A stretch of 64,000 bases of DNA. Origin: Streptomyces sp. NBC_00102. Lineage in GTDB: Bacteria; Actinomycetota; Actinomycetes; Streptomycetales; Streptomycetaceae. Shown here piece after piece: positions 27,832 through 30,709 of the stretch. Both the position numbers and the translations under genes were made by a program. The stretch is from NCBI RefSeq assembly GCF_026343115.1, contig NZ_JAPEMC010000001.1, forward strand, positions 4,049,501-4,113,500, read 5' to 3'. The notes under the pieces are model-generated. The model was not told the origin of the DNA. It saw nothing but the letters and a program-made list of their open reading frames with translations, and did not search any database. How positions within the stretch are numbered: the stretch's first letter is position 1; each line of letters opens with the position of its first letter.

Positions 27832-28125
27832 GTGTCCGCTGCCAAGCCGAGCGCAACGATCCGCTACTCCGCGCTGCGACTGCTGATTTTCGTCGCCTGC
27901 TTCTTCGTCTCCGGGGTGGCCGTCCACTTCGGCGTCATCCCCTCCGGCGTCGGTGGCTCCAACGTCATCTGGGTGGTGCTGCTCGGGCTGGTGCTGTCCG
28001 CCCCGCTGAGCTACGTGCTGCTGCGCAAGCAGCGCGACGAGATGTCCGCCCAGGTCGTCGAGAAGGTGGGCCGCGCCAAGACCCGCCTGGAGGCGAACCG
28101 CACGCGCGAGGACGTCGTCCAGTAG
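27832..28125 (+). CDS. DUF4229 membrane protein
   Basis: A 97-residue protein with two helices, IRYSALRLLIFVACFFVSGVAV and VIWVVLLGLVLSAPLSYVLL, then a charged tail (RKQRDEMSAQVVEKVGRAKTRLEANRTRED). This matches DUF4229, a small actinobacterial membrane family without known function. GTG start with GAGAGG 8 nt upstream. A hairpin follows 75 bp downstream. Confidence 0.8.
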   Translation: MSAAKPSATIRYSALRLLIFVACFFVSGVAVHFGVIPSGVGGSNVIWVVLLGLVLSAPLSYVLLRKQRDEMSAQVVEKVGRAKTRLEANRTREDVVQ

Positions 28126-28201
28126 GGCGCGGTTCACGTCCTGCCGGAACTCCCGGCGTAACCTTCGTCACACACGCGCCCGTGGGCGCGAGCGCACGTC
28201 G

Positions 28202-28250
28202 GACCCCGATCCGGAGCAAGTCGCTCCAGGGCCGGGGTCTTTGGTGTTTT
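28202..28250 (+). terminator. Terminator between the DUF4229 gene and the leader/symporter unit
   Basis: Arms GACCCCG (28202-28208) and CGGGGTC (28233-28239) enclose a second small stem GGAGC/GCTCC, followed by TTTGGTGTTTT. It insulates the leader-peptide transcription unit from upstream transcription. Confidence 0.75.
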
Positions 28251-28299
28251 CATGCACGCCCTGCCGGGCTCGCGCGACGGGACGCGTGGTCATAGAAAA

Positions 28300-28332
28300 A
28301 CTTTGAGGGCCTCAAAGTCGCGGTGTTAACGT
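28300..28332 (+). promoter_or_regulatory. Promoter of the leader/symporter unit with a 19-bp palindrome
   Basis: A perfect inverted repeat with arms ACTTTGAGG and CCTCAAAGT around a single G (28300-28318). It contains a -35-like TTGAGG (28303-28308), 18 bp from a -10-like TAACGT (28327-28332). Transcription would begin at about 28339, at the ATG of the leader peptide. The repeat is a likely repressor site; no cognate regulator is recognised in the window. Confidence 0.55.
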
Positions 28333-28339
28333 GAACGAC

Positions 28340-28444
28340 ATGAAGACAGCAGTGCGAATCCGCTACGCCCCGGGCGTCCCGCTCGTGGCGCGCCTGCACG
28401 TCGATCTCTGCCGCCGCACGACCGCGGCCTGTTGTCGCGTCTGA
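28340..28444 (+). CDS. Cysteine-containing leader peptide (putative attenuator)
   Basis: A 34-codon open reading frame, MKTAVRIRYAPGVPLVARLH then VDLCRRTTAACCRV. It has three Cys codons, two adjacent (TGT TGT) just before the stop. The segment VARLHVDLCRRTTAACCR resembles the short Streptomyces proteins annotated as putative leader peptides upstream of sulfur and cysteine genes. The ATG lies at the predicted transcription start, so translation is probably leaderless, as for the polycysteine leaders known in mycobacteria. It ends 113 bp before the symporter. Ribosome stalling at Cys codons when cysteine is short is the inferred control. A 10-bp interrupted hairpin (28509-28534) lies in the spacer. 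Confidence 0.65.
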   Translation: MKTAVRIRYAPGVPLVARLHVDLCRRTTAACCRV

Positions 28445-28557
28445 CCGACAGCATGCAGCGGCGCCGCCTCCCGGCGAGGACGCCGCCTTCCGTCCCCACA
28501 CCTTTCCCGCGTACCCGCACCCCCGTGCGTACGCCGCGTCCTGTCTGGAGTGTGTCC

Positions 28558-29907
28558 GTGTCCGCGAACTCCGCGTTCACCACGGAGACCGCCGAGCCCA
28601 AGAGCTCCGGTTTCCGTATACCGAAGGTGCCCTTCTGGGCCCAGATCGTCGCCGGTCTGGTCCTCGGTGTCGTCCTCGGCTGGATCACCCGCAGTTACGA
28701 CGTCGCGTGGCTCTACACCACGCTCGACAAGGTCGGCCACATCTTCGTCCAGCTGCTGAAGCTGGCCGTCGCGCCGCTCGTCTTCTTCGCGATCCTGGTG
28801 TCGATCACCAACCTCCGCAAGGTCAACAACGCGGCCCGGCTCGCCACCCGCACCCTGCTCTGGTTCATGATCACCTCGCTGATCGCGGTGGCCATCGGCC
28901 TCGCCATCGGCCTGATCACCAACCCGGGTTCCGGTACCGGCCTCACGCCGAAGGACGGCCTCAAGCCCGAGCACGCCGGCTCCTGGCTCGACTTCCTCAC
29001 CGGCATCGTCCCGACCGACGTGATCACGCCGTTCACCGAGCTGAACGTCCTCCAGATCGTCTTCATGGCCGCCGTCGCCGGCATCGCCGCCCTCAAGCTC
29101 GGCGAGAAGGCCCAGCCGATCCTCACCCTCAGCGAGTCGATCCTGGAGCTGCTCCAGAAGGCCCTGTGGTGGGTCATCCGCCTCGCCCCGCTCGGCACCG
29201 TCGGCCTCATCGGCTACGCCATCGCCGACTACGGCTGGGACCTCATCGGCAAGTACGCCACCTTCACCGCCGACGTGTACGTCGGCTGCGCCCTGGTGCT
29301 GTTCGGCGTCTACCCGCTGCTGCTCGCCACCGTCGCCAAGGTCAGCCCGCTCCAGTTCTTCAAGGGCGCCTGGCCCGCGATCCAGCTGGCGTTCGTCTCC
29401 CGCTCCTCGGTGGGCACCATGCCCGTCACCCAGAAGGTCACCGAGCGCCTCGGCGTCCCGAAGGAGTACGCCTCCTTCGCCGTCCCGTTCGGCGCCACCA
29501 CCAAGATGGACGGCTGCGCCGCGATCTACCCGTCGCTGGCCGCGATCTTCATCGCGCAGATCTTCGACGTGCAGCTCGGCGTCGGTGACTACGTCCTGAT
29601 CGCGTTCGTCTCGGTCATCGGCTCCGCCGCGACCGCCGGTCTCACCGGCGCCACGGTCATGCTGACCCTGACCCTCTCGACGCTGGGCCTCCCGCTGGAG
29701 GGCGTCGGCCTGCTCATGGCGATCGACCCGATCCTGGACATGATGCGCACCGCCACCAACGTGGCCGGCCAGGCGCTGGTCCCGGTGATCGTCTCGGCCC
29801 GCGAGAAGATCCTCGACCTCGGCAAGTACAACTCCGCCTCGGCCTCGCCGGTGGACGAGATCGAGGTCGTCGAGGAGGAGCCGGCGCGGGTCCCCGTCGC
29901 CGCCTGA
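28558..29907 (+). CDS. Dicarboxylate/amino acid:cation symporter (DAACS/GltP-TcyP type)
   Basis: A 449-residue secondary transporter. Family motifs include LLKLAVAPLVFFAILVSI, SRSSVGTMPVTQKV (the serine-rich hairpin), PFGATTKMDGCAAIYP and the helix-8 region AIDPILDMMRTATNVAGQALV. Members import glutamate, aspartate, C4-dicarboxylates or, in the TcyP branch, cystine, coupled to Na or H ions. GTG at 28558 has GGAG 7 nt upstream. The cysteine-containing leader before it argues for cystine or another sulfur-linked substrate rather than a plain dicarboxylate; this is inference. Confidence 0.9.
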   Translation: MSANSAFTTETAEPKSSGFRIPKVPFWAQIVAGLVLGVVLGWITRSYDVAWLYTTLDKVGHIFVQLLKLAVAPLVFFAILVSITNLRKVNNAARLATRTLLWFMITSLIAVAIGLAIGLITNPGSGTGLTPKDGLKPEHAGSWLDFLTGIVPTDVITPFTELNVLQIVFMAAVAGIAALKLGEKAQPILTLSESILELLQKALWWVIRLAPLGTVGLIGYAIADYGWDLIGKYATFTADVYVGCALVLFGVYPLLLATVAKVSPLQFFKGAWPAIQLAFVSRSSVGTMPVTQKVTERLGVPKEYASFAVPFGATTKMDGCAAIYPSLAAIFIAQIFDVQLGVGDYVLIAFVSVIGSAATAGLTGATVMLTLTLSTLGLPLEGVGLLMAIDPILDMMRTATNVAGQALVPVIVSAREKILDLGKYNSASASPVDEIEVVEEEPARVPVAA

Positions 29908-30024: not shown

Positions 30025-30042
30025 CCTTACTCGGGAGTAAGG
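30025..30042. promoter_or_regulatory. TetR operator upstream of the tetR gene
   Basis: A perfect palindrome, CCTTACTC-GG-GAGTAAGG, 25 bp before the tetR start. Its core TTACTC-N2-GAGTAA recurs in the promoter region between the fabG4-type and thiolase genes. Autoregulation by the adjacent TetR is inferred. Confidence 0.7.
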
Positions 30043-30067: not shown

Positions 30068-30709
30068 ATGGATGCCGTGAAGAGCAAGCGAATGCCACGC
30101 GCGGTGCGTGAGCAGCAGATGATGGACGCGGCGGTACGGATCTTCGGGCAGCGCGGCTACCGGGCGGCCTCGATGGACGAGATCGCGGAGCTCGCCGGCG
30201 TGTCGAAACCGCTGGTCTACCTCTACCTGAACTCCAAGGAAGAGCTCTTCACCGCGTGCATCCGCCGCGAGGCGAAGGCGCTGGTGGACGCCGTCCAGGC
30301 AGGGGTCGGGCCGGGGCTGCCCGCCGACCGTCAGCTCTGGGAGGGGCTGCGCGCCTTCTTCGTCCACACCGCCGAGAACCCGGACGGCTGGGCGGTGCTG
30401 CACCGCCAGGCGCGTACCCACGGGGAGCCGTTCGCCTCGGAGATCACCGCGATGCGGGACGAGATCGTCGCCTTCGTGACCGGCCTCATCGGTGCCGCAG
30501 CCCGGGAAGCGCACCACGATCCCGCGCTGCCCGACAGGGACGTGGCGGGCCTCGCGCAGGCGCTCGTGGGTGCCGCCGAGGCGCTGGCGGGCTGGGCCAA
30601 CGAGACCCCGGGCGTATCGGCACGGGAGGCGGCGGCGACGCTGATGAACTTCTCCTGGGCGGGCCTGGAGAACCTCATGAACGGACGGCCCTGGCAGCCG
30701 CCGGCCTGA
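30068..30709 (+). CDS. TetR-family regulator, probable lipid-gene repressor
   Basis: A 213-residue TetR protein. The helix-turn-helix region is AVREQQMMDAAVRIFGQRGYRAASMDEIAELAGVSKPLVYLYLNSKEELFTACIRREAKAL; the C-terminal domain is all-helical. GGAAGGAA precedes the ATG. The palindrome before it is shared with the fatty-acid module 3.5 kb downstream, so it probably represses both and responds to an acyl-CoA. It is convergent with the NTF2-like gene. Confidence 0.88.
   Translation: MDAVKSKRMPRAVREQQMMDAAVRIFGQRGYRAASMDEIAELAGVSKPLVYLYLNSKEELFTACIRREAKALVDAVQAGVGPGLPADRQLWEGLRAFFVHTAENPDGWAVLHRQARTHGEPFASEITAMRDEIVAFVTGLIGAAAREAHHDPALPDRDVAGLAQALVGAAEALAGWANETPGVSAREAAATLMNFSWAGLENLMNGRPWQPPA

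Follow-up and report, generated by a model that had tools for sequence, protein, structure and literature searches.

We found that the symporter gene in the window, that is the whole stretch of 64,000 nucleotides analysed here, is preceded by a short reading frame with a conserved peptide core and a fixed cysteine codon. With a probability of roughly 70%, we read this leader as a cysteine-responsive, ribosome-directed attenuator of a cystine-type symporter, the substrate being cystine, cysteine or S-sulfocysteine. Transcription would begin at the AUG of the leader, and the ribosome would translate the leader from the bare 5' end of the RNA. When Cys-tRNA is scarce, the ribosome would pause with the conserved UGU in its A site (in the window three codons before the stop), while its exit tunnel would hold the conserved ...RLHVDLCR...SA segment. 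The pause would then change what becomes of the RNA that joins leader and symporter, and the symporter would be made. A conserved leader in front of a probable cystine importer suggests that the cell, a soil bacterium, raises the importer when cysteine is low.

The leader MKTAVRIRYAPGVPLVARLHVDLCRRTTAACCRV occupies 28340..28444 on the forward strand, on which all stranded features given below lie as well. Its ATG (28340-28342) and its TGA (28442-28444) enclose 34 codons plus the stop. The conserved HVDLCR core is found at 28397..28414, and the conserved sensor codon, a UGU for cysteine, at 28430..28432 in the SAxC position, which is TAAC in the window. A second, optional UGU follows at 28433..28435; after this TGT pair (28430-28435) the frame ends in CGC GTC TGA. 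The gap to the GTG of the symporter at 28558 is 113 nt, with a Shine-Dalgarno GGAG at 28547..28550 that is found at the same site before the orthologues. The pattern H[VIM][DE]L.R..SA.C has a single match in the window and none in 60 random 64-kb sequences that keep the base-to-base transition frequencies of the window; because it also recurs at the same place in orthologues, the leader is not a chance frame. Against the NCBIfam model NF042934 ('putative leader peptide') it scores 22 bits, which does not reach the cut-off of 27. A search of the genome with the VDLCR pattern gave 7 matches, of which the frame of the window and L007 are leaders; it is superseded by the profile search described below.

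Upstream of the frame we detected a -10 box TAACGT at 28327..28332, identified by its position and its conservation in orthologues, and a possible -35 element TTGAGG at 28303-28308. The ATG of the leader lies 7 nt past the -10 box, which is the spacing expected of a leaderless start. A simple sigma-70 scan reported no promoter at the locus. A box of the GTTAVSRT type is present in 60 of the 67 Streptomyces leader loci, and the distance from the hexamer to the leader start is 7 nt in 57 of these 60 and 6 nt in the other three. The locus L077 keeps the same -10 spacing, but there it reaches the symporter's own ATG. That the spacing stays constant, whichever start codon follows, is our strongest evidence for a leaderless transcript, and we infer one for the leader and the symporter. 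A GTG in frame at 28331 shares bases with the -10 box and is an implausible leader start from this promoter. Leaderless mRNAs are given as 21% in S. coelicolor (PMC4895711) and as 17% in S. lividans (PMC8079986); the excerpted text of the latter paper lists eight leader peptides, none of which it terms cysteine-dependent. The 34-codon frame of the original prediction, with its VDLCR...CCR pattern, is borne out by the coordinates, the 0 of 60 random sequences and the recurrence in orthologues, and the -10 spacing would fit the predicted transcription start at its first codon.

Absence of the leader before orthologous symporters would have counted against the original prediction, and we checked for it. 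Our sample comprised 101 Streptomyces genomes including that of the window; 72 of them contain a close orthologue of the symporter, and all 72 upstream regions were read. The leader is present in 69 of the 72 loci (window counted), in 67 by motif and in two as variants recognised by eye, namely L045 with VDLG and L027 with an in-frame insertion. The upstream regions of the remaining three (L038, L075 and L077) hold no leader. In 26 fresh Streptomyces loci, we found 24 leaders by motif and two variants, L222 and L231, by eye. The symporter match of L026 (genome G059) carries one in-frame TGA.

Beyond this, a wider set of 44 loci was collected, 37 from the family (genera other than Streptomyces) or from the order and 7 from Streptomyces, with L194 (genome G088) shared between these 7 and the set of 72. 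The set leaves out the matching family genomes G151 and G171; of 95 matching genomes, those read were the other-family loci L240-L242, the loci common to other sets and L214-L239. The first motif gave 17 leaders in the 44 loci and a second motif 6 more. The single TGC in the second-motif set, in L192, is the codon after the sensor, and the leader of L199, VDFCRRVSAACRG, was recognised by eye. Ten loci of one genus, g14, have a cysteine-rich leader without HVDL at the same promoter, which looks unrelated and is possibly a replaced or strongly diverged form (L202, L203, L205-L207, L209-L211, L243 and L244; for example ...RRCRAMSCIPAARP). In L195, L196 and L198 the symporter's own start codon takes the position of the leader start, and L190 and L191 look alike by eye. 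In all, the leader is absent in about 5 of the 44 wider loci, and 5 others (L197, L201, L204, L247 and L251) are ambiguous. L077, L195, L196 and L198, together with L190 and L191 as judged by eye, are natural experiments on the role of the leader.

The leader is selected as a coding sequence. Over the codons LVARLHVDLCR of the 67 leaders, with kinship ignored, pN is 0.044 and pS is 0.322, giving a ratio of 0.136, compared with 1.13 for the preceding 11 codons and 1.70 and 1.77 for the core in the other two frames. From this in-frame purifying selection we conclude that the core is translated and that its amino acids matter. The same selection argues that the leader is not vestigial, and this bears on a 17-bp dyad, CTTTGAGG-G-CCTCAAAG, which spans the -35 region at 28301..28317 (no strand assigned) and is a candidate operator. 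The dyad reads CTTTGAGGGCCTCAAAG in the window and takes the form tCAAAG-N5-CTTTGAG-N3-CTCAAAG in orthologues, in most listed ones at a constant distance to the -10 box. We consider it improbable that the main control is transcriptional through this dyad, with the leader minor or vestigial. The dyad is retained in loci that have lost the leader (L038, L075, L077, L195, L196 and L198), and it is unique in the genome, where CTTTGRGNNNCYCAAAG at up to 1 mismatch has a single copy, the dyad itself. The strong purifying selection on the leader core speaks against this idea, and both controls can coexist.

The original prediction had placed the sensor in the two adjacent TGT codons just before the stop. 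The pair is indeed present in the window, but only its first codon is conserved: a cysteine follows the sensor in just 35 of 67 orthologous leaders, where it is TGC in 31 of the 35, and we rejected the adjacent pair as the conserved sensor. The cysteine of SAxC is present in all 67 symporter leaders and is encoded by TGT in 65 of them. The cysteine of HVDLC is TGC in 63 of the 67, and in the long open frames of the window with high GC3 TGT makes up 22 of 187 cysteine codons. The same preference is seen in leaders of other genes. For 15 Streptomyces genomes, we took 78 such leaders, 10 from the genome of the window and 68 from the other genomes, out of a total of 141 matches ranked by score; 74 of the 78 have cysteine at the sensor place, in 73 of the 74 as TGT, and among their remaining cysteine codons TGT accounts for 14 of 75. 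The four that were set aside are L270, which is not leader-like, and three (L307, L316 and L319) in which serine replaces the sensor cysteine (SAAS, SAIS), two of them with a cysteine just upstream of the motif. Sampled across the class, the sensor is TGT in 28 of 28 leaders against 44 of 305 cysteine codons in surrounding open frames; these 28 loci are new ones, two of them from Streptomyces, and the choice of the sensor codon is arbitrary in the polycysteine cases. Even in the g14 leaders without HVDL the last cysteine codon is TGT in 10 of 10. Pooled, UGU stands at the sensor in 166 of 169 leaders, and additionally in 24 of 24 previously unused Streptomyces leaders, while ordinary genes use 12-14% UGU. 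Since the neighbouring bases are more variable, the constraint appears to act on the codon rather than on some longer RNA word.

UGU is decoded by wobble by tRNA-Cys(GCA), a gene for which was found in the genome by pattern search. The one pattern search able to show a tRNA with the anticodon ACA returned none. Among the open-licence papers listed by our searches we found no mention of the UGU rule, and the UGU lock appears to be new; we found neither HVDLC nor HVDLCR there, and the lone match for VDLCR has a title about abalone sperm. The rule makes the question of whether tRNA charging or the nascent peptide is sensed testable through a one-base synonymous change.

A leader that only counted cysteine codons would have no need of a conserved core. 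It is conceivable in this context that the nascent HVDLxRxxSAxC chain itself responds, as TnaC does, to a ligand in the tunnel (cysteine, another thiol or sulfide), and that the cysteine codon only marks the site of arrest. The conservation of the core under synonymous change would fit such an arrest peptide, as would the fact that the core is common to leaders of unrelated genes and that cysteine codons alone would suffice for a pure Cys-tRNA sensor. However, the genus g14 keeps its cysteine-rich leader at the same promoter without HVDL, and the fixation of UGU over UGC points to decoding and not to the side chain only. On balance we regard sensing by the peptide as rather unlikely and prefer the ribosome paused for Cys-tRNA. 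More tentatively, and at a little less than even odds, the cysteine leaders of actinomycetes may all belong to one type of sensor shared across the class: a single wobble-read UGU would be combined with a conserved nascent peptide, and the device would here have been recruited before a cystine-type symporter. If this were true, UGU would be fixed against a strong preference for UGC, the wobble position and not a run of cysteines would set the sensitivity, and a synonymous change of UGU to UGC would blunt the response with the peptide unaltered. The class-wide fixation of UGU, coupled to a conserved peptide, is the part of the data that was unexpected.

Leaders of this family keep the company of sulfur genes. 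A search of the window's genome with the NF042934 profile gave 17 matches, of which six (L095-L100), weaker than that of the window, were dropped by eye as not leader-like; of the 11 leader-like sites, 9 lie above the cut-off. The ten other leaders precede, among others, genes of the ThiS, nitrite/sulfite-reductase and cysteine-dioxygenase families, a sulfatase gene, an SsuE gene (above its own cut-off), a cystathionine-beta-synthase/cysteine-synthase-like gene and a rhodanese-domain gene; the rest are a flavin reductase, an MFS transporter and a gene without a Pfam match. By eye, the ThiS-family gene is followed by a cysteine-synthase-like gene. Plausibly seven or eight of the ten genes are sulfur-related. 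At ten loci elsewhere, the leaders precede luciferase-like monooxygenases (two), a sulfatase, ABC-type binding proteins (four), an ABC permease, an acyl-CoA-dehydrogenase-like gene and one gene without a match. Most of this company fits sulfur scavenging. An awkward case is the cysteine-dioxygenase-family gene, which follows L087 and leaders like it (VRLWRRVHMDLVRYAGCVCRPSC), since one would not expect a lack of cysteine to induce an enzyme that breaks cysteine down. Possibly the dioxygenase has a different thiol as its substrate, or its leader exerts control of another sign.

In a sample of the class, the profile has matches in 57 of 79 genomes and in 39 of 53 genera, and at E values up to 0.005 it has no match in 14 well-known control genomes. 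Among 15 Streptomyces genomes, the symporter leaders of G009 (32.8), G012 (29.5) and G005 (27.4 with neighbours) lie above the cut-off, while those of G000, G002, G004 and G006 fall below it. The leader of the window resembles this cis_reg_atten family in having HVDLxRxxSAxC near the stop and in the sulfur genes that follow such leaders, and it differs in its score of 22 of the required 27 bits, which symporter leaders of three other genomes do exceed.

The symporter (449 amino acids, GTG start) belongs to the DAACS/SDF family (PF00375, E value 1.1e-104), and the records of its relatives mostly label it 'dicarboxylate/amino acid:cation symporter'. Its suspected kinship with cystine importers is supported by a signature in TM7, derived in this analysis and unpublished. 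The window protein has KMDGCAAIYP where TcyP has GQNGCAGLYP, and both are one residue longer here than GltP, DctA, SstT and the paralogue in the same genome. All 80 enterobacterial TcyP loci that were fetched carry the GCA..YP insertion, as do all 29 Streptomyces orthologues examined and all 54 additional full-length loci of the family or order; it is missing from E. coli GltP, DctA and SstT and from the genome's DctA-like paralogue. A scan for TcyP relatives returned enterobacterial loci only. E. coli TcyP is annotated as 'cystine/sulfocysteine:cation symporter', and the protein, also called YdjN, is described in the literature excerpt as an L-cystine symporter (PMC4383340). The two proteins share the SDF fold, the GCA..YP of TM7, SRSS in HP1 and RTA..N in TM8; they differ in an overall identity of only about 30% and in the residues around the common GCA (KMDG in the window, GQNG in TcyP).

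Overall similarity does not settle the substrate class of the protein. In blastp the symporter scores 159 bits with the paralogue, 156 with E. coli DctA, 155 with GltP and 150 with TcyP, and its best NCBIfam models, DctA (212 of 513 bits needed) and GltP (168 of 638), remain far below their cut-offs. These rankings, in which DctA and GltP stand slightly above TcyP, would suit a carrier of an acidic amino acid or a dicarboxylate instead of a sulfur amino acid. Aspartate transporters are also the nearest solved structures by sequence, and the symporter keeps the arginine in TM8, which binds acidic side chains in GltPh. TcyP, however, has this arginine as well and is alone in having the TM7 insertion in common with the symporter, and among the six proteins compared its own best match other than itself is the window symporter with 151 bits (GltP 127). 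Moreover, a second SDF protein of the genome is 47% identical to E. coli DctA, which argues that the window symporter is not the DctA, and the leader is of the sulfur type. We consequently judge an acidic substrate unlikely. What decides for us is the local TM7 signature, and cystine or a close relative is our best guess for the substrate.

How the paused ribosome would act on the RNA between leader and symporter is less clear-cut. It had been proposed that stalling exposes the ribosome site of the symporter. When the RNA was folded with the sensor region covered by a ribosome, the opening of this site did not change in the window, and over the 67 loci the trend is weak: the energy needed to open the site is lower by over 0.5 kcal/mol in 25 loci and higher by over 0.5 kcal/mol in 9, with a median drop of 0.25 kcal/mol (p 0.007). 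Placing the ribosome earlier has much the same effect (p 0.28 against the sensor position). The probability that the Shine-Dalgarno is unpaired is 0.139 with free RNA, 0.170 with the ribosome at the sensor and 0.159 with the early ribosome over the loci; the corresponding values in the window are 0.049, 0.040 and 0.128. Compared with 15 genes of the window including the symporter (mean 0.254, median 0.161), this sequestration is not clearly unusual. The RNA of the locus has no significant fold (z -1.44) and no Rfam match. The sequence CATGCAGCGGC after the stop, at 28452..28462, could pair with the leader's Cys-Arg-Cys codons in many orthologues, imperfectly so in the window. A helix between the cysteine codons and this stretch reaches at most 13 bp in one clade and was matched by no more than 2 of 40 shuffles in only 27 of 67 loci, the window not among them; we rejected it.

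The alternative that stalling prevents termination finds no support in its intrinsic form. A perfect-stem scan detected an intrinsic terminator between leader and gene in 0 of 67 loci (shuffles 10 of 335), and a second scan, of 28100-28620, gave three matches, all of them outside the stretch from leader to gene. In a few loci (for example L040, L048 and L078), visual inspection shows an imperfect hairpin or a T-rich run, so that a terminator in some relatives is possible. The original prediction is thus supported in part: for a coding-selected leader of the actinobacterial cysteine type, which precedes sulfur genes and is conserved with the symporter, and for a symporter with a TcyP-type signature. 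The paired-cysteine sensor and a terminator of the intrinsic kind are not supported, and the release of the ribosome site shows a weak trend over the 67 loci and none in the window.

The absence of a terminator from the simple scan would be expected if the leader ribosome controlled Rho-dependent termination in the spacer and not access to the ribosome site. The 60 nt before the Shine-Dalgarno average 48% C and 21% G over the 67 loci, figures given without a genomic background, and the same idea was put forward in print for mycobacterial cys leaders, as the excerpted text has it (PMC1262725). On the other hand, C-rich and G-poor stretches may be common in such genomes, the conservation of a rut site is not established, and the hairpins or T-rich runs seen by eye in L040, L048 and L078 were not counted by the scan. 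Control through Rho is a serious possibility that we would nevertheless bet against; purely by analogy with mycobacteria, we slightly favour a pause that acts on translation initiation.

The locus is likely a cysteine-responsive leaderless attenuator of a kind that is already known. For mycobacteria, polycysteine leaderless short ORFs that control initiation were reportedly described by Canestrari et al. in 2020. Second-hand accounts of these ORFs, and of the response of M. smegmatis to cysteine, are contained in excerpts of three further papers (PMC13236596, PMC9094748, PMC9031893). As far as these accounts go, the likeness lies in a short ORF, here predicted to be leaderless, with cysteine codons near its end and in several cysteine-metabolism operons per genome. 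In addition, two polycysteine leaders of the class, L324 and L326, match the same NCBI model as the Streptomyces leaders. The present locus differs in that it has one conserved UGU instead of a cysteine run, with just two adjacent cysteines in the window, in its symporter target, and in that masking of the ribosome site is unsupported in the window. The same-type leaders of the genome precede recognisable sulfur genes, while the substrate of the window's own gene is a predicted one. A second comparison is uORFC-8-2, the leader before cysS in Rhodobacterales, for which the excerpt reports conserved tandem cysteine codons and proposes attenuation by uncharged tRNA-Cys (PMC8632094). The two have in common a leader with cysteine codons and a proposed attenuation; there, UGC dominates and an intrinsic terminator is present, according to the same excerpt, whereas here UGU is fixed and the scan gave no terminator (PMC8632094).

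The leader gives a probable signal and a probable substrate to a symporter that is otherwise named only in general terms, and it extends the set of Streptomyces sulfur genes under leader control to an importer. Downstream of the symporter, we noted by eye a palindrome, CTTACTCGGGAGTAAG, at 30026-30041, just before a TetR/FasR-like gene at 30068; judging from this position, it is likely the operator of that regulator.
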